A stretch of DNA of 35,210 bases from Planctomycetaceae bacterium (GTDB lineage: Bacteria; Planctomycetota; Planctomycetia; Planctomycetales; Planctomycetaceae): assembly GCA_021732415.1 (NCBI GenBank), contig JAKFVC010000201.1, forward strand, positions 1 through 35,210. Direction: 5' to 3'. Both the position numbers and the translations under genes were made by a program. Positions 6,971 to 22,196 of this stretch are shown piece by piece; the stretch's first letter is position 1, and each line of letters starts with the position of its first letter. The notes under the pieces are model-generated. The model worked only from the letters and a program-made list of their open reading frames with translations. It was not told the origin of the DNA and searched no databases.

Positions 6971-8476
6971 CTACGTCGCCGAAGCCGATCGCACCGTAGT
7001 CAGGCGCTCCAACAAAAGTTGAGCCCCCCAGACAATCCCCAGGACGGCACCGCCGCCACAAGTGATGCCAATCAGCGCGGGCCAACTGTGGTGATCTGGG
7101 TAGTAGGTCGCCAACTGGTCTGAATACACCCACAGGCCCAGCAACGGCAACAGGTAAGGGACAATCCCTTCGCGGAACAAACGGATCAGCGGGATTCCCA
7201 GGTAGCGCATGCCGAGTGGGAGAATGATTCCGAGCTCAAATAAGACGATCGGAATCGAGGTCCCCCAGGCGACTCCGTGGACGCCCATGTATTGAGCCAG
7301 GATCAGACTGAGTACGAGATTGACGACCGCTTCGGCCAGGTAGACCAATGCCGGCAGTCTGGCTTGCCCCAGGCCAAACAGGATGGCTCGCAGGACGCCC
7401 ACGGGCAGCGCGACCACTTGACCAATCATCAAGATTATTAGCAGGTTCGGCGTTTGTTCGTAACCGGGGCCCATCCAAGTTTCTATTAAGGCTTTGCCAA
7501 AGTAGCTTGCACCAATGAAGATTCCCGTTGAGAGCAGGAATGTCACCCCCAACGCTTTACAGAGCAAGTCGCGCAGCTTGGCCGCCTGGACTTGAGACTG
7601 CAACGCTCCAGCCGTGGACATGCAGATGTCACTAATTTTCTCGATCGGTTGCCGCAGGAATTGACACAGCCGCAGTGCGATGAAATACGACGTGATCGCC
7701 GATTCACCGAGAACAACTCCAATCACCACGGTGTCGGTGGCATAGATCAACTGCTGAGCCACGGAGCTCAGGAAGGCAAAGCCGCTGAATGAGCAACACT
7801 CGCGGAAGACGTCCCAATTCAGGTGACTGCGACGGATCTCTAGCTGCGGCAACTGGCGATAAGCCAGCAGCACATATCCCAAGTTTTCGATCAGCGTGAT
7901 GACCCAATAAATGGTCGCAATGACGATCAGACCCCATTCGCGTTGGAGAAACACGACGATTAAGATCAGTCGCGTGACATCGACTGTGAATGATACGCCG
8001 CGTTCCAGATCGAACCGGCGCAATCCCATCAACACGCCGCCGAAGACGCTGCCGACGAGGCCCGTCGCGACATTCAACCCCAGCATCAGAATGACCAGTC
8101 GGATCTCCAGGACGGAGTGCGTCTTCCAGATAGAGAAATAGGGCACGAGCGCCGCGATGATGCAGGCGCCTGTCAGGGCGATTGCTCCGCCTGCAGCATA
8201 GACATAGAAGACCAGCGAGCTGACTTCATTCAGTTTCTTCCAGTCTTGAGCGGCAGAGTACTTTGCCACGTAGCAACTGATCGTCTGACCGAAACCCAGA
8301 TATAACAGACCAGCATAACTGGCCAGGCAATTAATAAAGACCCAGACGCCATACTGTCCGTCTCCGAGTTTATGGATGACGTACGGCATCAAGAAAAAGC
8401 CAATGACCAGGCTGGCCGCGTGGACGAACCAACTGGCGCCCACATTCCACTTCATCGACCGTGCGACCGAAGTCAT
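6971..8476 (-). CDS. Oligosaccharide flippase / polysaccharide biosynthesis membrane protein (Wzx-like)
   Basis: A 501-residue integral membrane protein of the MOP exporter superfamily (RfbX/Wzx/polysaccharide_synt type). The N-terminus 'NVGASWFVHAASLVIGFFLMPYVIHKLGDGQYGVWVF' is characteristic: an amphipathic start, a first helix, then the 'LG..YGvW' loop. About 12-14 hydrophobic segments follow, with a central polar loop around residues 285-305. These proteins move lipid-linked oligosaccharides across the inner membrane. No glycosyltransferase is adjacent here, so its partner pathway lies outside the window. The start ATG at 8476 gives a normal family length. Specificity cannot be inferred. 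Confidence 0.87.
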   Translation of the reverse strand: MTSVARSMKWNVGASWFVHAASLVIGFFLMPYVIHKLGDGQYGVWVFINCLASYAGLLYLGFGQTISCYVAKYSAAQDWKKLNEVSSLVFYVYAAGGAIALTGACIIAALVPYFSIWKTHSVLEIRLVILMLGLNVATGLVGSVFGGVLMGLRRFDLERGVSFTVDVTRLILIVVFLQREWGLIVIATIYWVITLIENLGYVLLAYRQLPQLEIRRSHLNWDVFRECCSFSGFAFLSSVAQQLIYATDTVVIGVVLGESAITSYFIALRLCQFLRQPIEKISDICMSTAGALQSQVQAAKLRDLLCKALGVTFLLSTGIFIGASYFGKALIETWMGPGYEQTPNLLIILMIGQVVALPVGVLRAILFGLGQARLPALVYLAEAVVNLVLSLILAQYMGVHGVAWGTSIPIVLFELGIILPLGMRYLGIPLIRLFREGIVPYLLPLLGLWVYSDQLATYYPDHHSWPALIGITCGGGAVLGIVWGAQLLLERLTTVRSASAT

Positions 8477-8597
8477 GTGTTACTCAACATTTCAAAGAAG
8501 ATTCGGTAACAACACAAAACCGACATTAAGAAATCACACTCGTTGGGGTGCGATTCGATTAATGTCGATTCACCGTGTTACTGCCGTAGTTTGTTTC

Positions 8598-8662
8598 GTA
8601 GCCACGTTCGCCAGAACGTGGGCCCTGTCCCGCGACTCCCACGCTCTGGCGAGCGTGGCTAC
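8598..8662. repeat. 25-bp inverted repeat with GTAGCC ends
   Basis: Arms 8598-8622 (GTAGCCACGTTCGCCAGAAC...) and 8638-8662 (ending GCGAGCGTGGCTAC) match with a few mismatches around a 15-base loop. It lies in the 345-bp gap between the flippase start and the response-regulator stop. Apart from this and the next repeat, the gap holds no gene. Confidence 0.9.
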
Positions 8663-8712
8663 TGCTCATCTTAGAGCGGTTTTACTTAATGTTTATGCAT
8701 TCGAAACGCGTT

Positions 8713-8812
8713 TGGGAGTATGAGGGTGCGAGAGTAACGGAGTAAGAGGGCCGGAATTCGCCTTTTCTCCACTCTCATACCCTCACACACTGGCACTCTC
8801 ATACTTTCAGTC
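8713..8812. repeat. Imperfect inverted repeat of the AGTATGAG family
   Basis: The left side AGTATGAGGGTGCGAGAGTA and the right side ending CACTCTCATACT are imperfect complements rich in GAGTATGAG/CTCATACTC. A related element lies at 30282-30391. It begins just after the stop codon of the minus-strand REC-HATPase gene and could help end its transcript. Confidence 0.7.
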
Positions 8813-8821
8813 GGCTATGAA

Positions 8822-9769
8822 TCATGCTAACTGCAACGCCGCCGGTGTCGCCGCACTGGTCGCCGGTCGGGATTCTGGTTGCTGACTAATGTATTTCACC
8901 AGAGTGATTTCATTACCCTTGGAATTGTGCTCGACTTCGTCCATAAAACTTCGAATCAACAGCATGCCTCGGCCACCGACCCGCATGATATGTTCGTCAT
9001 CGGTCGGATCTGCGACCCGGTGCACATCGTAGCCCGGACCTTCATCACGGACGACATAACGCACCATCTCGCGGCTGGCAGTGGCCTGCACGTACACGCG
9101 GCGTGCGGCATACTCGGGGGCATAACGTCGCTGATCCGCCAGATCATAAAACAGCGTCTCGTCATCTTGTCTTAACGCCGAATCCAACTCCAAGTTGCCG
9201 TGGTAGATCGCATTCGTCAGAGTTTCATGCAGGGCGACACCAATCCGCAGGACCAGGGTGTCGCTACACAATTTCATCGTGACGAGTTGATCCTGGAGCC
9301 ACGTGATCAATGGCGTGATCAGCAACACGTCGTTCTCCAGAACGAAGTGGGCACTTTGCACAGTGAGACTGCTGATGAGTCGGCGGCGGCTGAGTCGCGA
9401 CTGAGACAATGCCAGAACATTACCGACGGTTTCAATGAGACGGTGATCGATGTCCTGCTTCGCGATATAACTGGCCGCACCCGCCTCCAGAGCCCGTACG
9501 GCCGTGGCTTCGCTACCGCATCCAGTTATGACAACGACAGGGACACCGGGACACAGGCTTGCCGCCCGTTCGACGAGTTCCAAGCCGTCCACATTAGGCA
9601 TCTGAAAATCTGTGACGATGCAATCAAACGAGGCTTTGCCAATCTCGTCCAGTGCCTGCTGACCGTCGCTGGCATAGGTGATTTTGACGTCTGCAAGCTG
9701 TCTCGTCAGCAGCGCGCCGACCAGACGACGCTCTACAGGCGAATCGTCGGCAACAAGAATATTTGGCAT
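8822..9769 (-). CDS. Response regulator fused to an RsbW-like HATPase (anti-sigma-factor kinase-like) domain
   Basis: A 315-residue two-domain signalling protein. The N-terminal receiver domain (about 1-120) has the acidic pair 'VADDS', phosphoacceptor Asp54 in 'CIVTDFQMP', and Lys104. The C-terminal half (about 145-295) is an HATPase_c_2 fold of the RsbW/SpoIIAB kind: N-box 'HETLTNAIYHGNLE' (181-194), G1 box 'DEGPGYD' (242-248), and 'GGRGMLLIRSFMDEV' (265-279). The fusion suggests that phosphorylation of the receiver controls an anti-sigma or serine-kinase-like activity, as in general stress response switches. No anti-anti-sigma (STAS) or PP2C gene is next to it. It lies 197 bp downstream of the hybrid kinase on the same strand, so the kinase's HPt domain is the natural phosphodonor candidate. 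Start ATG at 9769 has AGAGGG upstream. Confidence 0.88.
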   Translation of the reverse strand: MPNILVADDSPVERRLVGALLTRQLADVKITYASDGQQALDEIGKASFDCIVTDFQMPNVDGLELVERAASLCPGVPVVVITGCGSEATAVRALEAGAASYIAKQDIDHRLIETVGNVLALSQSRLSRRRLISSLTVQSAHFVLENDVLLITPLITWLQDQLVTMKLCSDTLVLRIGVALHETLTNAIYHGNLELDSALRQDDETLFYDLADQRRYAPEYAARRVYVQATASREMVRYVVRDEGPGYDVHRVADPTDDEHIMRVGGRGMLLIRSFMDEVEHNSKGNEITLVKYISQQPESRPATSAATPAALQLA

Positions 9770-9966
9770 GAGTTTGGCCCTCTACCGCACAAGATCTAGA
9801 AAATCGTACGGTTCCCAAGAGTTGAACGCCGGGGGGCACGTACTAAACAATGAAAAATGAATCGTCACGATGCTGCGTAGAATAAGTATTCGCAAATAGG
9901 CAGGGATGCCTGATATTATTAATAATTAAAATGCCGATCACTCAGATCGGATGTCATGTCGATTCG

Positions 9967-12654
9967 TTAGTCCTGATTGACGATGCATTCCAGTTCGGCA
10001 TCAACTTCTCGCAGTGCCGCTTCCAGCTTGGCCAGAATGTCGGGCGCCTGACTGAAGTCCGATGCCTGGCCGCTGCGTTCCAGATCGCGCGCCGTTGTGA
10101 AGGCTTGAGTAGCAGCCAGACTGCTGACCATGCCCTTCAACTGATGAGCTGCCCGCTGGACCAGTTTGGAATCCTGCCGGGTCACGCCTTCGCGCAATTC
10201 GGCAACCACATCGGGACAACATCCCCGGTATCCCTCGAGCAACTCGCGCAGCAGTTCGCGGTCACCGTCCAGTCGCTTCCAAAGCGTCTTGCGATCAATG
10301 ACCGACGGGGCAGTCGTCTCCCACGTGATCACTGAAGATACCAGCGAGGAATTTGTCTTCGGCATAATGAAAGTCTCTTCGCAATGAGGATCGCGAGTGA
10401 CTGCCGGATGGCCTTTCACGACGACCGGTGTGGGGACACGTTCATCCAGATCAATCGTGTGGGCATCCACCTCAGTCGCAGCGGCGACAACTTCCGCCGG
10501 ACGTTCACTAAGTACGAGGCGTCCCAGGGCGGCAAACAATTCGTTGCGATTCACCGGTTTTGTCAAATAGTCATCCATACCGGATGCGAGGCAACGTTCG
10601 CGGTCTCCCTTCAGTACGCTGGCTGTCAGGGCAATGATCGGAATGTGCCGGCCGGTGTTCTCTTCCTGCTTGCGGATGATGGCAGTGGCTTCGAGGCCGC
10701 TCATACGCGGCATTTGCATATCCATCAGGATGACGTCAAAGGTGGGATCTTTTTCCAGGGCCTCGACGGCTTCGCTGCCATCGCCGGCAACTGCCGTTTC
10801 ATGTCCCTGCTTCTTAAGGAATTTGACGATCAATTGTTGATTGACAGGATTATCCTCAGCAACCAGAACTCGTAGCGGACGCGTCGGCATTGCCGGGGCA
10901 GTGGGAGTCGGCTGTAGAGCTTGTGCTTTTTCTTGCTCAGCTTGCGACGGACGTTTGACCGTTGGATCGGCGATACCCAACTGGACGGTAAAGTGGAATG
11001 TGCTTCCCTCGCCAATCACACTTTCGATCCAGATATTGCCGTGCATCAGTTCCGTGAGCTGGCGAGCGATCGCCAACCCGAGGCCGGTACCGCCATAACG
11101 TCGAGTGATCGATTTGTCGGCCTGTTCGAAGGGAATGAAAATCGCCTGGTGCTTGTCTGTAGGGACTCCAATGCCTGAATCCTGCACCGCAAAATGCAGA
11201 GTGGCGCGTTCAACGCTGGTGCGGGGTACGACGACGCCGGCAGGGGCTCCGGCCACGCTGTCGAGTTCCCAGATCGGGACTTCGACCGTGTCAATCGACT
11301 GCAACTTGACCGAGCAGCGCACGAACCCCTTGTCGGTGAATTTGACCGCATTGCTGACCAGATTGACCAGGATGTGACGTAGCCATTCGGGATCGCCAAT
11401 CAGGCCTTTGGGAATGTTCGCATCGATGAGGCACCGGAAATCCAGGCCCTTCTGACGGCTGCGAAACATCAACGGTTTCAGGCTGTCACGCAGCCATTCA
11501 CCGAGGCCGAATTCGACTCGATCCAGGTTGATCTTGCCCGCCTCGACTTTGGCAAAGTCGAGCAGCTCATTAATGATTGTCAGGAGTGACTCGGCCGATT
11601 CTTTGACCGTCTGCAGGCAATCGCGTTGTTCGCCGTCGACAGCGGTATCCAGCGCGAGTTCGGTCATCCCGATGATGCCGTTCAGCGGAGTCCGCATTTC
11701 ATGGCTCATGTTGGCCAGGAATTCGCTCTTCGTACGATTGGCTGTTTCCGCCTGATTGCGGGCTTCACGAATGACCGTCTCGGCCTGCTTTAACGCGGAG
11801 ATGTCGGAGATCGTTCCCAGGAAACCGGTGATTTCGCCAGTCGTCGAACGCAGGGGCACCACCGATCCGTGGACCCAGGTGATTGCTCCCTTGGTCGTCA
11901 TCCAGCGGCAGTTGATTTGCAGCTCCTGGCCGGCCCGAGTCGCCTTCGTCCACGCTTCCAGCTCACGTTCGCGGTCCTCGGGATGAATCGCCTGTTTCCA
12001 TCCCGAGCCCAGTGCCTGCTGCCGGGTCAAACCCGAGAGCTCACACCATTTTTCATTGACAAAAACGCACCGCCCTTTGGCATCTGTCTCAAAGATGCCC
12101 GCCGGCGAACGAGTAATGAGTGATTCATAGCGGGAATAGAGCTCGCGCTGCTGCGCTTCGAACTGCCGTCGATCGGTAATATCTCGTGTAAAAAAACGGG
12201 TACTGACCAATTCACCGTCACGTCGATGAACATTGGAATCGATCAGCACATGTTTGATGGCCCCGTCTCGGCAGCGCAGACGCGTCTCATAATCATGCAG
12301 CAACTCACCCGCCCGCAGACGGGTCAATACTTCGCTCATCGAAGCGGCGTCGGCATGAAATTCGGTAATGTGATGACCGATATAATCTTGGGGGGAGAAT
12401 CCCAGCAGGGTCAGTTCGGCTTTGTTGGCCCATAGAATGCGCCCATTAGGGGCGACCGAGCACATCCCGATGGCCGCGTTTTCGCAGAAATCAGCGAGCA
12501 GTCGCTCTTGAGGCGTGGGACGTGCCGCGGCGATGTCCGCCTGGCGATTGCGATCCCAACGTGCCAATCGTCCCAGAACCATCGCCAACATCGAGGCGAT
12601 AATTCCATGGCTGGTTAACATCAGACTATCAATAATGCCCAATCCCAACACCAC
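9967..12654 (-). CDS. Hybrid sensor histidine kinase: PAS-PAS-HisKA-HATPase-REC-HPt
   Basis: A multi-domain phosphorelay kinase. Numbering from the upstream TTG at 12780: a hydrophobic segment at about 43-70; PAS 1 about 93-205; PAS 2 about 215-335 with a PAC end 'GFLGTISDIS'; HisKA with His360 in 'MSHEMRTPLNG'; HATPase about 465-600 (N box 'NLVSNAVKF', 'DSGIGVP', 'GGTGLGLAI'); receiver about 636-755 with Asp687 in 'VILMDMQMP'; and a C-terminal HPt domain with His879 in 'AAHQLKG'. All four phosphotransfer residues are present, so it can run a complete His-Asp-His relay. The GTG at 12654 is chosen because GGGAG lies 8 bases upstream and the protein then opens with its hydrophobic segment; residues before it are Arg/Cys-rich and unconvincing. 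ATG at 12621 is an alternative. The probable target is the downstream REC-HATPase protein. Confidence 0.9.
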   Translation of the reverse strand: MVLGLGIIDSLMLTSHGIIASMLAMVLGRLARWDRNRQADIAAARPTPQERLLADFCENAAIGMCSVAPNGRILWANKAELTLLGFSPQDYIGHHITEFHADAASMSEVLTRLRAGELLHDYETRLRCRDGAIKHVLIDSNVHRRDGELVSTRFFTRDITDRRQFEAQQRELYSRYESLITRSPAGIFETDAKGRCVFVNEKWCELSGLTRQQALGSGWKQAIHPEDRERELEAWTKATRAGQELQINCRWMTTKGAITWVHGSVVPLRSTTGEITGFLGTISDISALKQAETVIREARNQAETANRTKSEFLANMSHEMRTPLNGIIGMTELALDTAVDGEQRDCLQTVKESAESLLTIINELLDFAKVEAGKINLDRVEFGLGEWLRDSLKPLMFRSRQKGLDFRCLIDANIPKGLIGDPEWLRHILVNLVSNAVKFTDKGFVRCSVKLQSIDTVEVPIWELDSVAGAPAGVVVPRTSVERATLHFAVQDSGIGVPTDKHQAIFIPFEQADKSITRRYGGTGLGLAIARQLTELMHGNIWIESVIGEGSTFHFTVQLGIADPTVKRPSQAEQEKAQALQPTPTAPAMPTRPLRVLVAEDNPVNQQLIVKFLKKQGHETAVAGDGSEAVEALEKDPTFDVILMDMQMPRMSGLEATAIIRKQEENTGRHIPIIALTASVLKGDRERCLASGMDDYLTKPVNRNELFAALGRLVLSERPAEVVAAATEVDAHTIDLDERVPTPVVVKGHPAVTRDPHCEETFIMPKTNSSLVSSVITWETTAPSVIDRKTLWKRLDGDRELLRELLEGYRGCCPDVVAELREGVTRQDSKLVQRAAHQLKGMVSSLAATQAFTTARDLERSGQASDFSQAPDILAKLEAALREVDAELECIVNQD

Positions 12655-12981
12655 GATTTTCGCTCCCACGGATCCGGCCGTCTTCTTACACTTGCTCCCG
12701 ATGCAGGAGACAGAGTGGCCCAATAGCAAGAAGTCTCGGCGTGGTCTAAAGGAAACGTAGCTCGGAATGCTCCGTGGCAAGGAAGAAACGCCACAGTCGG
12801 AGATGTTTTCCAGCCGGTGAAACCGCTACGACCGGTAAAGTCGGTGGAGGAAGGACTGTTCGCGGTTATAGGCAAGGGGACAAGCCGTTCGGCTGACTCT
12901 TCAGCACCAAAGGTGCGCGCCAAGCCAGCCGGGGGCAACGCCCTGGGTACGGGGCTAAATAGGAGCGCAGAAATAACTTTG

Positions 12982-13078
12982 CAGGTGAGCCGGGTGGCGT
13001 AAGCCCCCGGATTCTTTCTAATTTCGTTGAAACCGAAGGAACGAAGAATCCCGGGGCTTACGCCACCGGGCTCGCCTG
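12982..13078. repeat. 35-bp inverted repeat, 'GGCGTAAGCCCCCGG' family, copy 1
   Basis: Arms 12982-13016 (CAGGTGAGCCGGGTGGCGTA...) and 13044-13078 (ending GGGCTCGCCTG) match closely around a 27-base loop. A second copy with the same arms lies at 22296-22395. Downstream, 13124-13170 keeps pieces (ACAACCATCCG; GCCGGACGCTCGCCT) of the outer arm that surrounds copy 2. The gap 12655-13203 shows no gene. The 12890-12960 part contains further G/C-rich repeat-like text (GCCGGGGGCAACGCCCTGGG). Confidence 0.92.
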
Positions 13079-13203: not shown

Positions 13204-14274
13204 TTAGGACGGCTTTGATTTGCCCGTAATTCGTTCCCACTTCGCTTGGAATGTGGGACGATCAAACACCTCAGGGTTCACCACGCCGCGCGGCTTCTTC
13301 CCTGCCGCCAGATCGAGCAATCCCTGGCACGCGGCACGCCCGATGTCTCGGAAGAGTTCGTCGGTCCACGCGATCGAATGGGGGGCTAACAGGACGTTAT
13401 CGAGCGCTGCCCAACGCGGAGTTCCCGTCAGCGGTTCGCCAACAAAACAATCCAGCGCCGCTCCTGCAATCTTTCCCGACGAGAGTGCCGCGTAAAGTGC
13501 GTCTTCCTCAACGATGCCTCCGCGAGCCGTGTTGATCAAGTAGCCGCTCGGCTTCATCAACGCGAGTTCCCGGGTGGAAATCAAATTGCGAGTCTTGTCA
13601 TTGAGGGGACAATGGAGCGATACGAAATCGGACTGCGCCAAGAGTTCGTCGAGCGATACCGACTTCGCTCCCGCTTCCGCAATGACAGCAGCCGGCACGA
13701 ACGGGTCAAACACGAGCGGCGTTTGCATGCCAAAGCCTGACAGCAATTTGACGACCGCTTTTCCGATGCCACCAAAGCCCACGATGCCGAGCGTTCGCTC
13801 GCGAAGTTCACGGCCCATGTATTTGCTGCGTTCGTCCCAGCGTCCCTCGCGGACGAGTTTGTCTTTGATGCGGACGTGATGCACTAAAGCCAGCATCCAG
13901 CCGACGGTGGCTTCGGCGACGGAATAGTCCACGGCGCCTGTCGTAATGAAGAGGGCCACATCCGCGGCCGTGCAGGCGGCGACATCCACGCTGTCAAAAC
14001 CCACACCGAAGCGGCCGAGTCCCAAGAGGTCCTGACTGGCCGTGAGACTTTTCGCCGTCACACGCGGGGTCAGGACGACGACCCCGTTCACGCCGGACAG
14101 CTGGTCCGGTTCGATTTCTGGTCGATGTTCGGCGAACTTCTGAACGTCAACTCCGGCGGCCGAGGTCAGCAAGTTGAGACCGATGTCGCGGTATTTCAAC
14201 TGGCCGGCGGCATCGTAAAAATCTCCCGTCAGGGCCACGCTAAAGCGTGATTGTGATTGAGATTGAACATTCAT
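13204..14274 (-). CDS. D-isomer-specific 2-hydroxyacid dehydrogenase
   Basis: A NAD(P)-dependent dehydrogenase of about 356 aa that interconverts a 2-keto acid and a D-2-hydroxy acid (SerA/GhrB superfamily). The Rossmann motif 'GIVGFGGIGKAVV' is central. The catalytic set is visible as Arg in 'NTARGG', Glu in 'VGEPLTG', and His in 'LLAPHSIAW'. The ATG at 14274 overlaps the TGA of the preceding aldolase-cupin gene as ATGA. A TTG two codons upstream is less likely. The overlap indicates co-translation, so it probably reduces or oxidises a 2-oxo acid used or made by the aldolase. The exact substrate is unknown, and the 'phosphoglycerate dehydrogenase' label often given to such proteins is not supported by context. 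Confidence 0.88.
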   Translation of the reverse strand: MNVQSQSQSRFSVALTGDFYDAAGQLKYRDIGLNLLTSAAGVDVQKFAEHRPEIEPDQLSGVNGVVVLTPRVTAKSLTASQDLLGLGRFGVGFDSVDVAACTAADVALFITTGAVDYSVAEATVGWMLALVHHVRIKDKLVREGRWDERSKYMGRELRERTLGIVGFGGIGKAVVKLLSGFGMQTPLVFDPFVPAAVIAEAGAKSVSLDELLAQSDFVSLHCPLNDKTRNLISTRELALMKPSGYLINTARGGIVEEDALYAALSSGKIAGAALDCFVGEPLTGTPRWAALDNVLLAPHSIAWTDELFRDIGRAACQGLLDLAAGKKPRGVVNPEVFDRPTFQAKWERITGKSKPS

Positions 14275-15929
14275 TTCCAAGGATTTCCTTCAACAGTTGC
14301 GCAGCGTTCGTCCACAATGATGCGTTCCGGCTTGGGCCCGGCATAGACCCACAACATTTCCATCGTGCTTTGAGTATCGTTGATAAAGTAATGGACGCGA
14401 CCGCGCGGCTCCAGGGCCGTTTCACAGTCGCTCATCAGGTATTTTCTGCCCTCGACGACACAGGTCGCCTGGCCCGAAATGATGCAGATCGATTCATCGA
14501 AATCATGCACGTGAGCCGGCAGCCGGCCGGTCGGATGGAACAAGGCATACCCGCCGCTCATCTCAATGCCGGGGACCAATGTCGAATTAAACTGATCGAC
14601 GAATTCCGTATTCGGTCCCGCCGCGAACCGCTTCACGAGAGCAAACCGGTTGATGCGTTCGGCGCCTGCGACGCCCTGCGAATCTTCAGGCATCGAACGT
14701 CGCGAGAAGAATTTTTCGATCAACGTGCGACTGGGAGTATCTGTTGGCATCGAGACATGCAGGACCGCAGGCTCTGTCGTCGAAGGATTGCGCGCGGAGT
14801 GAGCCAGCCCCGGCGGGATGATGGCATTGTCGCGGTTCTTCAACGTATAGGTCCGACCTTCGACCTCGACAATCAGCGATCCACGCAGCAAGGTGATGGA
14901 CTCGGTGAAGGTGTGCGAGTGATAGGGCAAGACTGCCCCGGGGGCGAACGTCACCAAACCGGTAGTCAGGTTCTTGGCCTGATTGTGCTTGCCCACCATG
15001 CAGTCAAACTTGACTCCACGGCTGATCTCAATCTGCGGGCCCGAGCCCACCTTGTTAATGACTTCCGGGCGATCAGGCCGCATCGATTCCGGCGGTCGCG
15101 TGAGCGGTGCCGGAGCGGCTGCAACCGGCGTGGTTGGTACGAACGAGGACTGCATTGGGCGATCGCGGCCAACCACGGCCATTGACGCCTTCAACGATCG
15201 CAGCAACAAGCCCGAGTCGAGCCCCAACCCGATCATGCGGAAGCCTTGTTTCTGGCGTTCGATCAGATTCTCGTTGTTCGTGGCGATCAGGCCGCAGTTC
15301 TTCCCCGCGCGACGCAATGTGTCTTTGATCTGCAGAATCTGATCCGCGACGCCGGGACCTTCCCACTGTCCCCGGTATCCGGCCGTCGAGGAGAAGTCTG
15401 CGGGGCCAAAGAAGAAGAGCTCTGCGCCTTCGACCTGCGACAGCATCGGCACCTGTCGGATCGCCTTCACCGATTCGATGATCGGGACGACCAGGACGTG
15501 CTCGTTGGCATCGGCGGTGTGTTCGACGAAGCATTGCCCCCAGCACGTCGCTCGCTCGGCACCGATGCCGCGCATTCCCTCTTCGGGATAGCGTGCCCAG
15601 GAGATCGCCTGCCGCAATTGGTCGGCAGACTCGATCCACGGGATCACGACGCCATCGGCACCAATATCCAACGCGCGTTTGATGTCGCCGCCGTTGAGTT
15701 CCGCCAGGCGGACCAGCGCGACGGTGTCGCTGCGGACGGTCGCTCGCAGGTGTTCGACGATCTCTTTCCAGTCGAGGTGTCCATGTTCGGCGTCGATCAC
15801 GACCCAGTCCAGACCCAGCGCGACGGCCATCTCGGTGATGCTGGGGGACTCCAAGGTTACCCAAAGCCCGAAGACGGGAGTGTCGGCCGCCAATTTGCGG
15901 CGGAGATTGCGGATGGCGGAGATTTTCAT
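14271..15929 (-). CDS. HpcH/HpaI aldolase fused to two cupin domains
   Basis: A 552-residue three-domain enzyme. Residues 1-250 are a class II (metal-dependent) HpcH/HpaI aldolase: 'VVIDAEHGHLDW' (about 43-54), 'RYPEEGMRGIG', metal ligands in 'IIES' (Glu152) and 'GPADFS' (Asp178). These enzymes cleave 4-hydroxy-2-oxo acids to pyruvate or a similar keto acid plus an aldehyde. A Pro-rich linker (about 258-295) leads to cupin 1 (His337, His339, Glu343, His377) and cupin 2 (His473, His475, Glu479, His513). Both keep the full three-His-one-Glu metal site, so both may be catalytic. ATG 15929 is preferred because an ATG at 15956 would lie inside the operator palindrome. It overlaps the dehydrogenase gene by 4 bases and is divergent from an FCD-GntR regulator. 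A uronate or sugar-acid pathway is inferred, not shown. Confidence 0.87.
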   Translation of the reverse strand: MKISAIRNLRRKLAADTPVFGLWVTLESPSITEMAVALGLDWVVIDAEHGHLDWKEIVEHLRATVRSDTVALVRLAELNGGDIKRALDIGADGVVIPWIESADQLRQAISWARYPEEGMRGIGAERATCWGQCFVEHTADANEHVLVVPIIESVKAIRQVPMLSQVEGAELFFFGPADFSSTAGYRGQWEGPGVADQILQIKDTLRRAGKNCGLIATNNENLIERQKQGFRMIGLGLDSGLLLRSLKASMAVVGRDRPMQSSFVPTTPVAAAPAPLTRPPESMRPDRPEVINKVGSGPQIEISRGVKFDCMVGKHNQAKNLTTGLVTFAPGAVLPYHSHTFTESITLLRGSLIVEVEGRTYTLKNRDNAIIPPGLAHSARNPSTTEPAVLHVSMPTDTPSRTLIEKFFSRRSMPEDSQGVAGAERINRFALVKRFAAGPNTEFVDQFNSTLVPGIEMSGGYALFHPTGRLPAHVHDFDESICIISGQATCVVEGRKYLMSDCETALEPRGRVHYFINDTQSTMEMLWVYAGPKPERIIVDERCATVEGNPWK

Positions 15930-15954
15930 GAGGTCGCCTTGACGGACAGTCACC

Positions 15955-15981
15955 ATCTGATTATCACAGTGATTATCAGAT
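15955..15981. promoter_or_regulatory. 27-bp near-perfect palindrome, probable GntR-family operator
   Basis: Half-sites ATCTGATTATCAC and GTGATTATCAGAT flank a central A. The halves are complementary at 12 of 13 positions. It lies between the divergent aldolase-cupin gene (start 15929) and the FCD-GntR gene, where a regulator that controls both its target and itself is expected to bind. Binding by the adjacent regulator is inferred. Confidence 0.8.
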
Positions 15982-16020
15982 GGATTGGAGAGGTTTAATC
16001 GGACCGCACACAGGTGTCAA

Positions 16021-16782
16021 GTGACGATATCGGCATCATCTCCCACGGCAGCCCACCAAAGCTTGCCCAGCGTTTGGGATTCCATCTCGACCCTGGTGCA
16101 GGACCGCGGCCTGCAAGTTGGCGATCAACTCCCGTCGATTCGCGAACTTGCGGAACGTTTAGAGGTAAAGCAGAGTTCCGTCCGGGACGCCCTGCTGAAG
16201 GCGGAATCTCTCGGATTTGTGAAGATTCTGCCCCGGTCGGGGGCTTTCTTGCGAGTGCCAGGGCAGACGTTGACCAAGGTCGCAAATCCGGTGGAGACGA
16301 CCCCTGCGGAGACTATTCTGTCGGTTTTGAATTCGGGTGAGCACAACCTGTTTCATTTGCTCGATGCGCGGCGGTTGATTGAAATCGAACTCGCCGGCCG
16401 CACTGCCGAGCGTCGCCGGTTGGAGGATTTGCTCCCCATCCGGCGGGTTCTGGAAGCCATGCTGCAATTGACCGACGCGACGGCTCGCCAGGAGTACGTC
16501 GATTTGGATATCCGGTTTCATCTGGAAATTGCCCGGCTGTCGGGCAACTCTGTCTTGTTCGCCATCCAGCAAACGTTGATGGAACTGCTGCGTCCCCATT
16601 TGAATGAAGTCCCGCGCGACTTGCAGCGAAAATCAATCACCGACCGTTCGCACATTGCCATTTACGAAGGTCTCGTTGCAGGATCTGCCGACCGGGCCCG
16701 TGCGGAAATGCGCGAACACCTGAGTCTGGCCTATGACAGCATGTTGAGGGACATGCAGGAACCGCCCACGATGATGATGTAG
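16021..16782 (+). CDS. GntR family transcriptional regulator, FCD (FadR) subfamily
   Basis: A DNA-binding repressor or activator of about 253 aa. The N-terminal winged helix-turn-helix is seen as 'GDQLPSIRELAERLEVKQSS' followed by 'VRDALLKAESLGFV' (about residues 33-68). The C-terminal all-helical FCD domain contains the metal/ligand set 'DLDIRFHLEIA' plus the two later histidines in 'DRSHIAIYEGLV' and 'MREHL'. FCD regulators usually sense organic acids such as lactate, gluconate or uronate derivatives. There is no ATG start: GTG at 16021 with AGG upstream is preferred, and TTG at 15985, directly beside the operator palindrome, is the alternative. It is divergent from the aldolase-cupin/dehydrogenase pair and almost certainly controls it. 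Its TAG stop is also the left end of the next inverted repeat. Confidence 0.9.
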   Translation: MTISASSPTAAHQSLPSVWDSISTLVQDRGLQVGDQLPSIRELAERLEVKQSSVRDALLKAESLGFVKILPRSGAFLRVPGQTLTKVANPVETTPAETILSVLNSGEHNLFHLLDARRLIEIELAGRTAERRRLEDLLPIRRVLEAMLQLTDATARQEYVDLDIRFHLEIARLSGNSVLFAIQQTLMELLRPHLNEVPRDLQRKSITDRSHIAIYEGLVAGSADRARAEMREHLSLAYDSMLRDMQEPPTMMM

Positions 16783-16928: not shown

Positions 16929-19900
16929 ATGCATCGACTTGCACTACAATTGACTGTTACCTTGATCGCCTGCTGCTGCTCTCACGCTGTCCAAGCCGAC
17001 GACGCCGGTATTGAATTCTTCGAGAAGAAGATCCGCCCAGTCCTCGTCGAACACTGCCAGCAGTGCCACGCGAGCGATTCCAAAAAACTCGGTGGCGGGT
17101 TGTTGCTCGATCACCGCGAGGGGGTCCTTAAAGGAGGGGATTCGGGTGCGGCGATTGAAGCCGGCAAACCCGAAGAAAGTTTGCTGATCAAGGCAATTAA
17201 GTACGACGACGACTCATTGAAGATGCCGCCCAAGGGAAAGCTGCCGCCTGCGGTCATCGCCGACTTCGAAGCGTGGGTGAAGCTGGGTGCTCCTGATCCT
17301 CGAGACAAACCGGCCGCGCCTAAGGCCGGTGATTCCTGGGCGGAAACCATGCGGCAGCGAGCTGACTGGTGGAGTCTCAAAGCGGTCCAGAATCCCGCCG
17401 TTCCCCAACCGAAAGATGCGAACTGGTCCGCGAATCCCATCGATCGGTTCTTGCTGGCTCGTCTGGAAGATGCCAAGCTGGCTCCGGCTGCCTCCGCGGA
17501 TCCGCGAACGCTGGCCCGGCGAGTCAGCCTGGTCCTGACCGGCTTGCCCCCCGCGTCTGAACAAGTCGAATCGTTCGTTCAACAGTGTGCTTTGACCGCG
17601 ACACCGAATCAGCCAGTATCTCCTGCGGCGTTGGAAAAGCTCGTGGACTCGTTGCTCGATTCACCTCATTTCGGTGAACGCTGGGCGCGGCATTGGCTCG
17701 ATATCGTGCATTTCACCGAGACGCACGGCAACGAATGGAACTACGAAGTCCATCACGCCTGGCGCTATCGCGACTATCTGATTCGAGCATTTAACGCCGA
17801 CATCCCCTATGACCAGTTTGTGCGCGAACACATTGCGGGGGACTTGCTGCCTCAACCGCGAGTCAACGCTCAAGAGCATTTCAACGAATCGATTATCGGC
17901 ACGGGCTTCTATCGTTTTGGTGAGGTCAATCACGACGACTGCATCGGCCTGCGGCAGATTGGTTATGACCTCGCCGACAATCAAATTGACACGCTGACAA
18001 AGACGTTTCAAGCGACGACCGTGGCGTGTGCCCGCTGCCACAACCACAAGCTCGACGCCATTTCGATGCATGACTACTACGGACTGCTGGGAGTCATTCG
18101 CAGCTCGCGGCTGGCGAGTCATGCGATCGACACCCCCGATTTGAATGCGACTCAGTTGCAGCGGATGCGAGATCTGAAGACGGAGCTGCGGAAAGAATCT
18201 GCCGCGACGTGGTTGCAGGACATTCCGCTCCTCACAAGATATCTGGAAGCGGCACAGGCCAAGCACGGTAAGCTGCCGACCGCCGAACAACTCGCTGTCG
18301 GCCTGGATCAGGCACGGATTGATAAATGGGTGGTTGTTCTCGCCGATGACAAGTTGCCGTTAGAGCATCCTTTGCACGCATGGCGTAAGTTGACCGTCGC
18401 GGTCACCGAGCCCGCAAAGTTTGCCGAAGAGTGGAAGAAGTTCGCTGAGCAAATCGAGAAGGAAGACCGCGAACGTACGGCTTTCAATCAGCAAAACTAC
18501 GTGACGTTTGCAGACTTCCGCTCGGATCAAGTTCCAGGGTGGCAGATGGGAGGATTGGGGGTCTCCGGAGCTACGAGCCGTAGCGGTGATTTCACCGTGC
18601 AGCCTGACGGTGATTTGCTGGTGCGATCCGTCCTGCCAGCGGGCCGGTTTTCCAATGCCCTCTCTGACAAACTGAACGGTACGCTTCGTTCGCCGGTCCT
18701 GCCGTTGGGAAAGGCTAAGATCAGCTTTCAGGTCATGGGTCAGCGCAGCAGTGCCGTGCGGCTGGTCTCTAACAACTGTCAGCTCAACTATGCCAACTAT
18801 CGGGCCTTGAAAACACCCGAACTGCAATGGGTGACTTTCTCGCCCCCCGCTGATCGCGACAGCCTGAGGACCTATGCCGAACTGATGACGATGTTCGACA
18901 ATCCGAAGTTCCCTGACCAACTGAGTGCCCTGGGTGGCGATGGCGAGAACTATCGTCTGCCGTGGGAAAAAGCGGCTGAGAATCCCCGTTCGTACTTTGG
19001 CGTCACGCGGGTTGTTCTCCACGACGTGGGTGAAGCTCCGAAGGCCGAAGTCAGTCATCTACAACGGTTGATCGCCGGACCGGCTCCCCAATCGTTGGCT
19101 GAATTGTCGACCCGTTACGCTGCCGTTCTCGAAGCCGCGATCCGCATCTGGGGTGAGGACAAAGCGACCGACGACGATGTCCGCTGGATCGATCCGCTGT
19201 TGCGTCGCGAGTTGCTCACCAACAAGGTGACCCAATCCCCGCGCAGTACGGAACTCGCGCAGCAATACCGCCAGGCCGACGCGGAGATCGCGCTGCCGCG
19301 AGTCATCGTCGGGATGTCTGACTGCGGCCCTGGTTTTGAACAACCGGTTTTCATTCGCGGCGATTGCGAGAAGCCCGCAGAAACGGCCGCCCGGCGGTAT
19401 CTGGAAGTCTTGTCCAAGCCCGATTACAGCTTTACGAAAGAGGGGAGCGGGCGCCTCGAACTGGCCGACCGCATTGCCAGTCCGACCAATCCTCTCACCG
19501 CCCGAGTCATGGTGAACCGCCTGTGGCATCATGTGTATGGAACGGGCCTGGTTCGCACGGTGGATGACTTCGGACATGTGGGAGAACTTCCATCCCATCC
19601 CGAGTTGCTGGATTATCTCGCCACGCGCTTCGTCGAAGAGGGCTGGTCGGTTAAACGGATGCTGCGAGCGTTGTTGCTGACGCGAACGTTTCAGATGACC
19701 AATCATCCTTCCAATGAAGCCCTCGAAAATGATCCTCAGAACCGGCTGTTGCAACACTATCCCGCGCGCCGCATGGAAGCTGAAGGGGTGCGAGATTCCA
19801 TCCTCGCCGCGTCAGGTCGCATTGATCACAGCCTGTACGGGATGAGCATCCAGCCGTTTCGAGACAAAGAGTACGCCGACCGTCGGTTGTTTCCTGGACC

Positions 19901-20324
19901 GCTGGATGGGAACGGACGGCGCAGCATCTATGTGAAGAACAATTTGATGGAAGCTCCGAAGTTCCTGGCAGCGTTCAATTTCCCCGGAGGCAAGGTGACT
20001 CAGGGGCGGCGCGACGTCACGAATGTGCCGGCCCAGGCCCTGGCGTTGCTCAACGATCCGTTCGTACTGCAACAGGCCGATTTCTGGGCCCAGAAGCTGA
20101 TCACCCGTGAGAATGACTCCATCAGCGCACGGATCGGGGCCATGTTCCAGACGGCCCTTAACCGAGCGCCGACTCCTGAAGAACAAACGCGATTTGAACA
20201 AACCGTGAAACAGTTTGCCGAACTGCATCAAGTGCCGGCCGAGGGGATCTTGAAGAGTCAGCCAGTGTGGAAGGAAATCTCGCACGTGTTGTTCAATGTG
20301 AATGAGTTCATCTACATTCCGTGA
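16929..20324 (+). CDS. PSCyt1-DUF1549-DUF1553 planctomycete cytochrome-like protein
   Basis: An exported 1131-residue protein of a family expanded in planctomycetes. Residues 1-23 are a signal peptide (...CCCSHAVQA). A PSCyt1 domain follows with a CxxCH haem-binding motif, 'CQQCH' at 43-47. DUF1549 (about 145-390) contains 'ERWARHWLDIVHF' and a second CxxCH, 'CARCH' at 367-371. A middle β-rich stretch (about 525-690, starting 'FADFRSDQVPGW') may be a carbohydrate-binding-type insert. DUF1553 (about 840-1110) contains 'NPLTARVMVNRLWHHVYG'. The function is not established; surface or periplasmic electron transfer linked to polymer breakdown has been suggested for such proteins. Its usual neighbour is a DUF1501 protein, but here a CotH-family gene follows on the same strand. 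Start ATG at 16929 is directly before the signal peptide. Confidence 0.92.
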   Translation: MHRLALQLTVTLIACCCSHAVQADDAGIEFFEKKIRPVLVEHCQQCHASDSKKLGGGLLLDHREGVLKGGDSGAAIEAGKPEESLLIKAIKYDDDSLKMPPKGKLPPAVIADFEAWVKLGAPDPRDKPAAPKAGDSWAETMRQRADWWSLKAVQNPAVPQPKDANWSANPIDRFLLARLEDAKLAPAASADPRTLARRVSLVLTGLPPASEQVESFVQQCALTATPNQPVSPAALEKLVDSLLDSPHFGERWARHWLDIVHFTETHGNEWNYEVHHAWRYRDYLIRAFNADIPYDQFVREHIAGDLLPQPRVNAQEHFNESIIGTGFYRFGEVNHDDCIGLRQIGYDLADNQIDTLTKTFQATTVACARCHNHKLDAISMHDYYGLLGVIRSSRLASHAIDTPDLNATQLQRMRDLKTELRKESAATWLQDIPLLTRYLEAAQAKHGKLPTAEQLAVGLDQARIDKWVVVLADDKLPLEHPLHAWRKLTVAVTEPAKFAEEWKKFAEQIEKEDRERTAFNQQNYVTFADFRSDQVPGWQMGGLGVSGATSRSGDFTVQPDGDLLVRSVLPAGRFSNALSDKLNGTLRSPVLPLGKAKISFQVMGQRSSAVRLVSNNCQLNYANYRALKTPELQWVTFSPPADRDSLRTYAELMTMFDNPKFPDQLSALGGDGENYRLPWEKAAENPRSYFGVTRVVLHDVGEAPKAEVSHLQRLIAGPAPQSLAELSTRYAAVLEAAIRIWGEDKATDDDVRWIDPLLRRELLTNKVTQSPRSTELAQQYRQADAEIALPRVIVGMSDCGPGFEQPVFIRGDCEKPAETAARRYLEVLSKPDYSFTKEGSGRLELADRIASPTNPLTARVMVNRLWHHVYGTGLVRTVDDFGHVGELPSHPELLDYLATRFVEEGWSVKRMLRALLLTRTFQMTNHPSNEALENDPQNRLLQHYPARRMEAEGVRDSILAASGRIDHSLYGMSIQPFRDKEYADRRLFPGPLDGNGRRSIYVKNNLMEAPKFLAAFNFPGGKVTQGRRDVTNVPAQALALLNDPFVLQQADFWAQKLITRENDSISARIGAMFQTALNRAPTPEEQTRFEQTVKQFAELHQVPAEGILKSQPVWKEISHVLFNVNEFIYIP

Positions 20325-20369
20325 GTGGTGCTAATCGGATCAAATTTGAAAGCCCATTGAAGTTCTCCA

Positions 20370-20494
20370 GGTGAGCCCCGTCTCGTTAGGGCGGGGGTAG
20401 GGTTGCGACTCTGCTTACCGATCGATTTCATTCAATGCTGGATTTGAATTGAAAGTCACTACCCTACCCCCGCCCTTACGGGACGGGGCTCACC
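20370..20494. repeat. 34-bp inverted repeat between PSCyt1 and CotH genes
   Basis: Arms 20370-20403 (GGTGAGCCCCGTCTCGTTAG...) and 20461-20494 (ACCCTACCCCCGCCC...CTCACC) match with two mismatches around a 57-base, AT-richer loop. It occupies much of the 240-bp gap, so the two genes may be separate transcripts or coupled through a structured spacer. Confidence 0.92.
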
Positions 20495-20564
20495 AGAGTT
20501 ATTTATTATGTGGACTCGCGTGGTAGAATGTCGCCGTTCGACTAATCGATTCGGAGGCATCGCC

Positions 20565-22196
20565 GTGAAACTCTCTCAAACCTGTCTGCTGGCCTGTGTG
20601 ATTCTGTCACTGGCGGGTCTCGCACATGGTCAAACGAAATCGTCGGTTCGCAATGTCCTGACGAAGCCCAGGCCTGATGCGACGACCCAGTTCTTCACCG
20701 ATCCGCAAGTCTGGAAGCTGAAGATCCAAATCTCGCCGGCGGAGCTGGAAAAACTGCGTGAGGACAATCGCAAGTATGTGCGCTGTGATTTGATCGAGAA
20801 CGGTCAAGTGACTTACAAGAGTGTTGCTATCAAGCTCAAGGGAGCGGCAGGTAGTTTCCGCGAGTTTGATGATCGTCCTGCTCTCACGCTGAACATGGAT
20901 CGCTTTACGAAGGCGCAGACGTTGCATGGGCTGGAGAAATTTCATCTCAACAATTCGGTGCAGGATGAATCGTACTTGAACGAGCTGCTGTGCTCGGAAT
21001 TGTTTCGAGCCGCTGGCCAACCGGCTCCGCGGATCACTCATGCCCGGGTCTGGTTGAATGACCGGGATGTCGGGTTGTATGTGCTGAAGGAAGGCTTCGA
21101 TAAGCGGTTCCTCAAGCGGTACTTCGCGGATGAAACCGGCAATCTGTATGACGGTGGATTCTGCCAGGACATCGATGCCGATCTGGAAAAGGATTCGGGT
21201 AACGGTCCCGACGATCGGTCCGACCTGCAGGCCTTGCGAGACGCCTGTGCCGATCCCGATCGCGAGTCGCGCTGGGCGCGACTCGGCAAGTTAGTGGACA
21301 TTGATAAGTTTATCGAATTCATGGCGCTCGAACTGATGACGTGCCACTGGGATGGTTACACGCAGTCTAAGAACAATTATCGATTGTATTTCGATCCTCA
21401 AACCAAGAAGGCACATTTTCTGGCTCATGGCATGGACCAGATGTTTGGCGATACCGGCTCATCCATTTTGAATCATCCCCCGGCGATGGTGGCCTCGGCG
21501 GTGATGCGCAATCCCGTCTGGCGTGAGAAATACCGCGTGCGGTTGAAATTGTTGCTCCCCTTGTTCGCGCCACCGACGAAACTCATTGCACGGGTGGAGG
21601 CGGTCCACCAACGCCTGCTGCCGGTGTTCAAAGAGATGGGCGATGAGCAAGCCACCGCATTCACCGATCGAGTCAACGAGCTGAAACAGCGATTGATCGA
21701 TCGTGCCGCGAATCTGCAGGAACAAGTCGAATTGCCGGACCCCGGACCACTGGAGTTCAACGAGGAAGGCTTTGCCGAATTGCCGGAGTGGCATCCGGCA
21801 TCCGAATCGGAAGACGCCGTTCACGAACAACCGGAACTCGATGGAGCGCTGGCGACTTATCTCATCCAATGCGGTCCCAGCGGCAGTTGTGCTGCTTCCT
21901 GGCGGCGGACCGTGCTGCTCAATCCCGGGCGGTATCAGCTTGAGGCTAAAGTGAAGACGGAGAACGTCGTCCCTCAAGAAGATGAAAAGGGAAATGGTGT
22001 GGGTCTGAGAATCTCAGGGGGCAATCGGACTAATAAACTGTCCGGGACGGGCGATTGGAAATCTCTCAAGCACGAGTTCGAAGTCGTCGACGAAATGCGC
22101 GAAGTCGAACTGGTGGCAGAACTGCGGGCGACCGGTGGCAAGGTCTGGTTCGACAGCAAGTCAATGCGACTGAAGCGATTGCCACCGGCACCGTAA
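20565..22196 (+). CDS. CotH kinase family protein, exported
   Basis: About 543 aa. GTG at 20565 is the start because GGAGG lies 7 bases upstream and a signal peptide follows at once (KLSQTCLLACVILSLAGLAHGQ); the longer frame from ATG 20508 has neither. The CotH domain (about 40-390) shows 'VAIKLKGAAGSFREFDDRPAL', 'KFHLNNSVQDESYLNELLCS', 'GLYVLKEGFDKRFLKRYF' and 'HFLAHGMDQMFG'. CotH proteins are atypical protein kinases, first known from spore coats, and also occur as surface proteins in bacteria that do not sporulate. At 'HGMDQMFG' one of the two acidic residues typical of classical CotH appears to be Gly. The C-terminal 130 residues look like a β-sandwich carbohydrate-binding-type domain. 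It follows the PSCyt1 gene, suggesting a shared exported function. Confidence 0.87.
   Translation: MKLSQTCLLACVILSLAGLAHGQTKSSVRNVLTKPRPDATTQFFTDPQVWKLKIQISPAELEKLREDNRKYVRCDLIENGQVTYKSVAIKLKGAAGSFREFDDRPALTLNMDRFTKAQTLHGLEKFHLNNSVQDESYLNELLCSELFRAAGQPAPRITHARVWLNDRDVGLYVLKEGFDKRFLKRYFADETGNLYDGGFCQDIDADLEKDSGNGPDDRSDLQALRDACADPDRESRWARLGKLVDIDKFIEFMALELMTCHWDGYTQSKNNYRLYFDPQTKKAHFLAHGMDQMFGDTGSSILNHPPAMVASAVMRNPVWREKYRVRLKLLLPLFAPPTKLIARVEAVHQRLLPVFKEMGDEQATAFTDRVNELKQRLIDRAANLQEQVELPDPGPLEFNEEGFAELPEWHPASESEDAVHEQPELDGALATYLIQCGPSGSCAASWRRTVLLNPGRYQLEAKVKTENVVPQEDEKGNGVGLRISGGNRTNKLSGTGDWKSLKHEFEVVDEMREVELVAELRATGGKVWFDSKSMRLKRLPPAP

Follow-up and report, generated by a model that had tools for sequence, protein, structure and literature searches.

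What does a single polypeptide do in which a metal-dependent aldolase is joined to two cupins, each with a full set of metal ligands? The question is raised by a 35,210-nucleotide stretch of a Planctomycetaceae bacterium (contig JAKFVC010000201.1 of GenBank assembly GCA_021732415.1; hereafter the window), where an aldolase–bicupin fusion gene is followed by a 2-hydroxyacid dehydrogenase gene and is divergent from the gene of an FCD-family GntR regulator. We give roughly even chances to the reading that this operon is an inducible catabolic unit for a sugar acid (an aldonate or 2-oxo acid). The evidence comes from sequence, i.e., the gene order, the domains, the conserved catalytic and metal-binding residues, an operator-like element, and the genes that neighbour the fusion in relatives. 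The features are given below in window coordinates, the residue numbers of the aldolase and the cupins being those of the 561-residue open reading frame (ORF).

14271..15929, minus strand: aldolase–bicupin fusion gene, 552 residues from ATG 15929; ORF open to ATG 15956 (561 residues)
15186..15905, minus strand: HpcH/HpaI aldolase domain, residues 18–257
15087..15161, minus strand: linker, residues 266–290; model confidence below 50 at residues 270–280
14757..14957, minus strand: cupin 1 (Cupin_2 stretch), residues 334–400; ligands H346, H348, E352 and H386
14334..14525, minus strand: cupin 2 (Cupin_2 stretch), residues 478–541; ligands H482, H484, E488 and H522
13204..14274, minus strand: D-isomer-specific 2-hydroxyacid dehydrogenase, 356 residues from ATG 14274
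15958..15978: operator-like element TGATTATCA-CAG-TGATTATCA in the divergent promoter region
16021..16782, plus strand: FCD-family GntR regulator, divergent; ORF open to TTG 15985
16929..20324, plus strand: PSCyt1-PSCyt2-PSD1 protein with CxxCH; an association by neighbourhood, which does not imply membership of the module

Three ORFs, 13204–14280 and 14271–15956 on the minus strand and 15985–16782 on the plus strand, were confirmed in the window. The first part of the middle one matches Pfam family HpcH_HpaI (PF03328) at residues 29–252 (E 3.2e-30; 105.5 bits against a gathering score of 25), and the two Cupin_2 stretches follow in the same frame (E 1.3e-26). Given these E-values, and the recurrence of the fused architecture in 61 of 73 loci with enough sequence upstream, the fusion is not a matter of chance. 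The sequence-only reading, made from the letters of the window, had claimed a fusion with complete metal sets in both cupins, a co-translated 2-hydroxyacid dehydrogenase and a divergent FCD-GntR regulator, and had proposed a survey of the fusion in other genomes. The Pfam domains of one ORF and the loci found by that survey bear out the architecture, the metal sets are present, the regulator has both GntR and FCD matches, and the co-translation is plausible from the way in which the two genes overlap. For the fusion, the second ATG (15929, residue M10) is the most likely start, M10 being kept in all of 53 aligned fusions; for the dehydrogenase it is ATG 14274, which shares its last two bases with the beginning of TGA, the stop codon of the fusion. 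Such ATGA overlaps are often tied to translational coupling, which is thus plausible for this pair. The start of the FCD gene is uncertain between TTG 15985 and GTG 16021, the latter being the more likely.

In the aldolase domain, D55, H58, R83, D97, E161 and D187 align with the HpaI structures 2v5j and 7et8, and we take them to fill the catalytic His/Asp/Arg and the metal-binding Glu/Asp roles of HpaI. All six are invariant in 65 aldolase domains and in 53/53 aligned fusions, and the best solved matches of the N-terminal domain are the HpaI/HpcH structures 2v5j, 4b5s and 7et8 (E 2.3e-37 to 1.3e-36). The aldolase of the fusion is predicted to be of the pyruvate type, with its active-site positions kept.

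Each cupin carries a set of three histidines and one glutamate, and all eight predicted ligands are invariant in the 53-row fusion alignment. Among 74 bicupins, the distant ones included, six ligands are invariant, and one histidine and the glutamate of cupin 1 are kept in 73. By this doubled motif and by the fold of its model (predicted local distance difference test score, pLDDT, 95.0; predicted template-modelling score, pTM, 0.92), the bicupin belongs to the cupin superfamily. Which cupin it resembles is less specific. The top fold match is quercetinase YxaG (Z 26.0, rmsd 2.4, 249 aligned residues, 18% identity), which also leads the profile ranking (E 1.1e-7), and both ranks speak for an oxygenase, like quercetinase or gentisate dioxygenase, that cleaves a keto-enol and leaves a fragment to the aldolase. 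However, oxalate decarboxylase (Z up to 25.4), DUF861 (up to 24.4) and BacB (22.6) follow closely, so that the match is one to bicupins generally, and no aromatic-pathway family is found among the 25 commonest of 119 Pfam families of neighbouring genes, the scope of all our neighbour-family counts. We regard an oxygenase as very unlikely. The fold and the sequence profiles alike place the protein among bicupins in general, without naming a function.

Seed storage globulins also stand high in the fold ranking (Z about 23), and cupins are found in sensors and storage proteins too. Both points favour a second alternative, in which the cupins are a non-catalytic sensor or metal-holding appendage of the aldolase, as does the Nramp-type transporter gene, so assigned by a family search on L111, that L111, L112 and L113 have next to the bicupin. 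Against it stand the invariance of both ligand sets in the 53 fusions, the stronger conservation of cupin 2 (42 invariant columns after residue 131 against 10 before it, in a 48-row alignment), and the persistence of the bicupin in 10 of the 73 loci where no aldolase adjoins it; the chance that the cupins are mere appendages seems slight. The sequence-only reading had named a grouping with storage or sensor cupins as what would refute it; on this the fold alone cannot decide, and the conserved metal sets argue for the cupins being enzymes.

KdgF and KduI are cupins of uronate catabolism, and it was to KdgF, which acts on 4-deoxy uronates, that the sequence-only reading had likened the window's cupins in guessing at an all-in-one uronate or sugar-acid route. 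KdgF (5fq0) matches the bicupin profile at E 0.0011, rank 23–24 of 34, behind quercetinase, BacB, gentisate dioxygenase and others; it is missing from the profile matches of cupin 2 alone at E ≤ 1. Neither KdgF nor KduI is among the best 50 fold matches listed, an absence that excludes nothing, and the window protein has no KduI/IolB (PF04962) Pfam match at E ≤ 0.001. The bicupin is therefore as near to many other cupins as it is to KdgF, or nearer. A uronate route would have the bicupin act like KdgF or KduI on 4-deoxy-5-keto-uronates, the dehydrogenase stand in for KduD, and the aldolase split 2-keto-3-deoxygluconate (KDG). In its favour are a Mannitol_dh-family gene after the dehydrogenase in L091, a GH88 gene in the window's genome, and the existence of cupin isomerase and reductase clusters for uronates (PMC12838403). 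The similarity to KdgF is unspecific, however; KduI (PF04962) is found in 0/59 related genomes at E ≤ 1e-10; GH88 (PF07470) occurs in 4/10 relatives with the aldolase–bicupin stretch versus 19/49 others (Fisher p = 1), and so is untied to the fusion; and neither a polysaccharide lyase nor GH88 is among the 25 commonest neighbour families. The uronate route is quite unlikely, and we do not retain it.

The second gene of the operon matches both domains of its family, PF00389 (2-Hacid_dh; 52.5 against 24.6 bits) and PF02826 (2-Hacid_dh_C; 196.8 against 25.1 bits). Its R253, E282 and H301, presumably the catalytic Arg-Glu-His, and G165, G168 and G170, presumably the glycine-rich NAD site, are conserved at ≥97% in 36 dehydrogenase sequences longer than 250 residues. 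A dehydrogenase lies directly downstream in 38 of the 64 loci with at least 1.3 kb of downstream sequence (34/53 fused, 2/2 split and 2/9 without an adjoining aldolase).

The divergent gene encodes a GntR helix-turn-helix (44.5 against 27 bits) and an FCD domain (74.3 against 24.3 bits), its best NCBIfam models being NanR and LldR, both under their cut-offs. We compared the intergenic regions of seven loci in which an FCD gene diverges (the window, L032, L103, L052, L063, L091 and L109). The 9-bp palindrome TGATNATCA is paired at a distance of 12 bp in the window, L032, L052, L063 and L091 (twice in L091), and its copies are single or degenerate in L103 and L109. The TGATNATCA pair is a predicted operator of the FCD regulator. 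The 21-bp pattern was then sought, with one mismatch allowed, in 18 genomes chosen as carrying or neighbouring the fusion. The window's 9.87 Mb genome has one exact site (15958–15978) and two one-mismatch sites, and the exact sites elsewhere (G002, G003, G435, G441 twice, and G442) all lie within about 125 bp upstream of a fusion or bicupin start. Ten of the 18 genomes have no match, including G004 and G014, where the copies are degenerate, and several that lack a divergent FCD gene; the reversed pattern has no match in any of the 18. Each of the seven one-mismatch sites examined falls within a stop-to-stop frame of 80 codons or more. Of the two in the window's genome (C17 and C168), one is in a 452-residue frame, taken by eye for a biotin carboxylase, and the other in overlapping 156- and 190-residue frames. 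The regulator seems to serve this operon alone, since the exact site is unique in the genome and the one-mismatch sites fall in open frames, for which reason a wider regulon, of which no further member was found, was set aside.

How widely is the fusion distributed, and is it old? Scanned by peptide pattern, 84,980 species with one genome apiece gave 63 loci, all titled Planctomycetota or Verrucomicrobiota, although some titles of assembled genomes may be wrong; a scan of this kind reaches close relatives only. The full aldolase–bicupin stretch is present in 10/59 relatives, two of them broken by one in-frame TAG, and a phylum-wide search found the bicupin (E ≤ 1e-20) in 8/392 genomes, four times in frames of 556–594 residues and four times, as distant bicupins, in frames of 292–334 residues. 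Our set of 75 loci, which contains near-duplicates (the window and L032; L081 and L097), includes 73 with at least 900 bp upstream; besides the 61 fused loci, 2 are split into adjacent genes and 10 are without an adjoining aldolase. A midpoint-rooted tree was made of 74 loci, L116 being left out for a stop in the translated matched stretch of its bicupin. The main bicupin clade (69 rows) holds 62 fused, 5 aldolase-less and 2 split loci. The split pair and its aldolase-less neighbour nest inside this fused clade, for which reason the fusion looks ancestral there, with later fission and loss, although 22/70 inner branches are weak. This old and stable fusion is found in Planctomycetota and in some Verrucomicrobiota. 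In the split loci (L076/L106 and L107) the aldolase and the bicupin are separate, 3 bp apart in the same frame with one TAG between them, and nested as they are inside fused relatives they are probably products of fission. L076 is a locus of Paludisphaera soli, a cultured relative. In L048 (6835–8816), an aldolase-less bicupin has a 4-bp overlap with the end of a Zn-alcohol-dehydrogenase gene, and its nearest relatives, L039 and L040, are fused.

A separate aldolase (49–64% identity) is present in 4/6 genomes that have a bicupin and no adjoining aldolase (G434, G435, G436 and G034; not G437 and G438) versus 2/48 other relatives (G009 and G013; Fisher p 0.0007, the groups being unmatched by lineage). 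An aldolase acting in trans for the unfused bicupins was not built upon, given the unmatched groups, the fusion-bearing G439, which also has a separate aldolase, and the distant-bicupin genomes G105, G126, G278 and G347 (outside the count), none of which has one above 29%.

What would the operon break down? The neighbours of the fusion were collected as 98 same-strand genes from 63 loci, with gaps of at most 200 bp and products of at least 180 residues, and with the clusters of the fusion and of the dehydrogenase excluded; as a custom ORF chooser called the genes, some are missed or wrongly extended. SGL/gluconolactonase is the commonest family (16/98), followed, among others, by esterase/peptidase-type hydrolase families (6 each), PSCyt1 (6), NHL (6), SDR (5), DUF1501, PSD1, DUF7133 and AP_endonuc_2 (4 each), and MR_MLE (3), and ALDH and Mannitol_dh also occur. 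Little can be read into the mere presence of PSD1 and DUF1501, two families said to abound in planctomycetes. Several SGL proteins start with a signal-peptide-like stretch, as judged by eye. Solved relatives of the SDR and SGL neighbours are general matches only, and an AP_endonuc_2 neighbour has none at E ≤ 0.001. On the distant branch, the bicupin of L111 adjoins a gene of Ldh_2, a family of NAD(P) 2-hydroxyacid dehydrogenases unrelated to that of the window, with NHL and SGL genes beyond it, and the Nramp-type gene flanks the bicupin on the opposite side; L112 repeats this order (genes 82–85% identical, the Ldh_2 gene 82%). The Ldh_2 gene beside distant bicupins suggests that 2-oxo and 2-hydroxy acids are a shared currency.

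We propose a sugar acid, or its 2-oxo form, because it is what the pyruvate aldolase, the 2-hydroxyacid dehydrogenase or Ldh_2, and the lactonases would have in common, and from this we infer the substrate, every reaction with its direction, and the repression. Sugars would be oxidised outside the cytoplasm to lactones, which in many relatives the neighbouring, apparently exported gluconolactonase-like proteins would hydrolyse, and the sugar acid would enter the cell. The bicupin may then carry out a metal-dependent isomerisation, dehydration or ring-opening of the acid or its 2-oxo form to yield a 4-hydroxy-2-oxo acid, which the fused aldolase would split into pyruvate and an aldehyde, and the dehydrogenase would interconvert 2-oxo and 2-hydroxy acid with NAD(H). 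The FCD regulator would repress the operon from the two TGATNATCA boxes, and release them on binding an acid. A bolder version is doubtful: that in bacteria of the Planctomycetota–Verrucomicrobiota–Chlamydiota (PVC) group this undescribed two-metal bicupin family dehydrates or isomerises a sugar acid or its 2-oxo counterpart, a reaction new for cupins, and hands the product to the fused pyruvate aldolase, replacing the usual step of an enolase-superfamily dehydratase. Of the catabolic module in the sequence-only reading, the sugar-acid setting stands, with the SGL, SDR, MR_MLE, AP_endonuc_2, ALDH and Mannitol_dh neighbours, and the KdgF-like, 4-deoxy-uronate version falls. An all-in-one route was too strong a claim, as three functions cannot span a whole sugar-acid pathway and the bicupin also occurs with no aldolase adjoining it.

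Several observations weigh against the sugar-acid reading. The neighbour-family counts have no baseline from random genes; in the window, part of whose ORFs were scanned, the search beside the operon gave no gene of a lactonase, dehydratase or transporter, and the genes beside the regulator are those of PSD1 and CotH; and 26/64 loci are without a dehydrogenase directly downstream. Neither the aldolase–bicupin protein nor the dehydrogenase meets an NCBIfam cut-off, so that sequence gives no substrate. The full-length fusion model has a pTM of 0.54 with a linker below pLDDT 50 at residues 270–280, and thus makes no case for channelling.

Could the sugar be named? Certain Isosphaeraceae-type loci, in which families were searched on representatives and the rest assigned by similarity, recall a non-phosphorylative route for L-rhamnose (a 6-deoxyhexose), where a rhamnosidase and RhaT would supply the sugar, an SDR would oxidise it, and the bicupin, aldolase and dehydrogenase would lead to pyruvate and lactaldehyde-derived products. 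The order fusion or bicupin, dehydrogenase, SDR, AP_endonuc_2 is shared by L075, L076/L106, L082, L094 and L107, and by L109 with a PhyH gene between dehydrogenase and SDR; a GH78 rhamnosidase gene is present in L075, L076/L106 and L107, and RhaT in L075 and L082. Yet among the 59 relatives, at the thresholds used, RhaT is found in 2, the SDR in 5 and GH78 in 4, versus the 10 that have the aldolase–bicupin stretch, and two MR_MLE proteins score 65.8 and 132.4 against the L-rhamnonate dehydratase cut-off of 393. We consider the rhamnose route unlikely, and discard it for the window's genome, where none of RhaT, GH78 and the neighbouring-type SDR (0/3) was found at those thresholds. One more hint of a sugar-acid setting comes from L109, whose MR_MLE protein (18290–19624) scores 320 with the NCBIfam model of galactonate dehydratase, above its cut-off of 311; the MR_MLE protein of L039 reaches no dehydratase cut-off. 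Galactonate is not named as the substrate, the L109 gene being on the opposite strand about 6.6 kb from the fusion.

Further genes were seen around these loci. In the window, the PSCyt1-PSCyt2-PSD1 gene and then a CotH kinase-like gene lie downstream of the regulator (16929–22196), and PSD1 adjoins the FCD gene in 6/7 FCD-divergent loci. Beyond the dehydrogenase (6971–12780) are genes of a Polysacc_synt_3 (polysaccharide-flippase-like) protein and of PAS/histidine-kinase/receiver/Hpt signalling proteins. In L066 (about 11050–13000), a second, unfused pair of aldolase (28%) and dehydrogenase (37%) genes stands on the opposite strand right after the fusion, dehydrogenase and SGL genes. In the Schlesneria-titled L036, L043, L047 and L067, the place of the dehydrogenase after the fusion is taken by a TPR protein gene and, on the opposite strand, a Bac_export_1 gene.

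The literature searched, mostly at abstract level, gave no description of an aldolase–cupin fusion. The parts belong to two known superfamilies and are ordinary; it is their combination that is new, and the operon in which they stand, with its predicted operator, plausibly serves sugar acids. Much of planctomycete sugar metabolism resists assignment by homology, and the occurrence of close relatives across many planctomycetes and in some verrucomicrobia suggests a way of degrading sugar acids that is new to the literature. With two genes and one effector, the conserved fusion, its seemingly dedicated regulator and its predicted operator offer a compact system in which to look for a new enzyme activity, the class of substrate being indicated by the neighbouring lactonase and 2-hydroxyacid dehydrogenase genes. 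The window's bicupin reaches no NCBIfam cut-off, and its best solved matches are at ≤18% identity.

In comparison with known systems, the bicupin shares its two-cupin fold with quercetinase YxaG, oxalate decarboxylase, DUF861 (of the (S)-ureidoglycine aminohydrolase type) and BacB (Z 22.6–26.0), but at only 10–18% identity, and of the uronate cupins it matches KdgF only at E 0.0011, with KduI in neither the Pfam nor the profile matches listed. The dehydrogenase is of the same D-isomer-specific family as a fungal enzyme that acts on a 2-keto sugar acid (PMC4870679), a likeness at the level of the family. The aldolase is like HpaI/HpcH, the 4-hydroxy-2-oxoheptanedioate aldolase, in that its catalytic and metal positions align, and unlike it in being fused to a bicupin, in scoring 159.4 bits against the HpaI equivalog cut-off of 368.8 (TIGR02311), and in having no homoprotocatechuate-pathway family among the 25 commonest neighbour families. 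Its scores are lower still with GarL (141.7 bits) and RhmA/YfaU (117 bits), far under their cut-offs of 406.75 and 441; these 2-keto-3-deoxy sugar-acid aldolases are nonetheless of the same superfamily, and share with it a sugar-acid setting.

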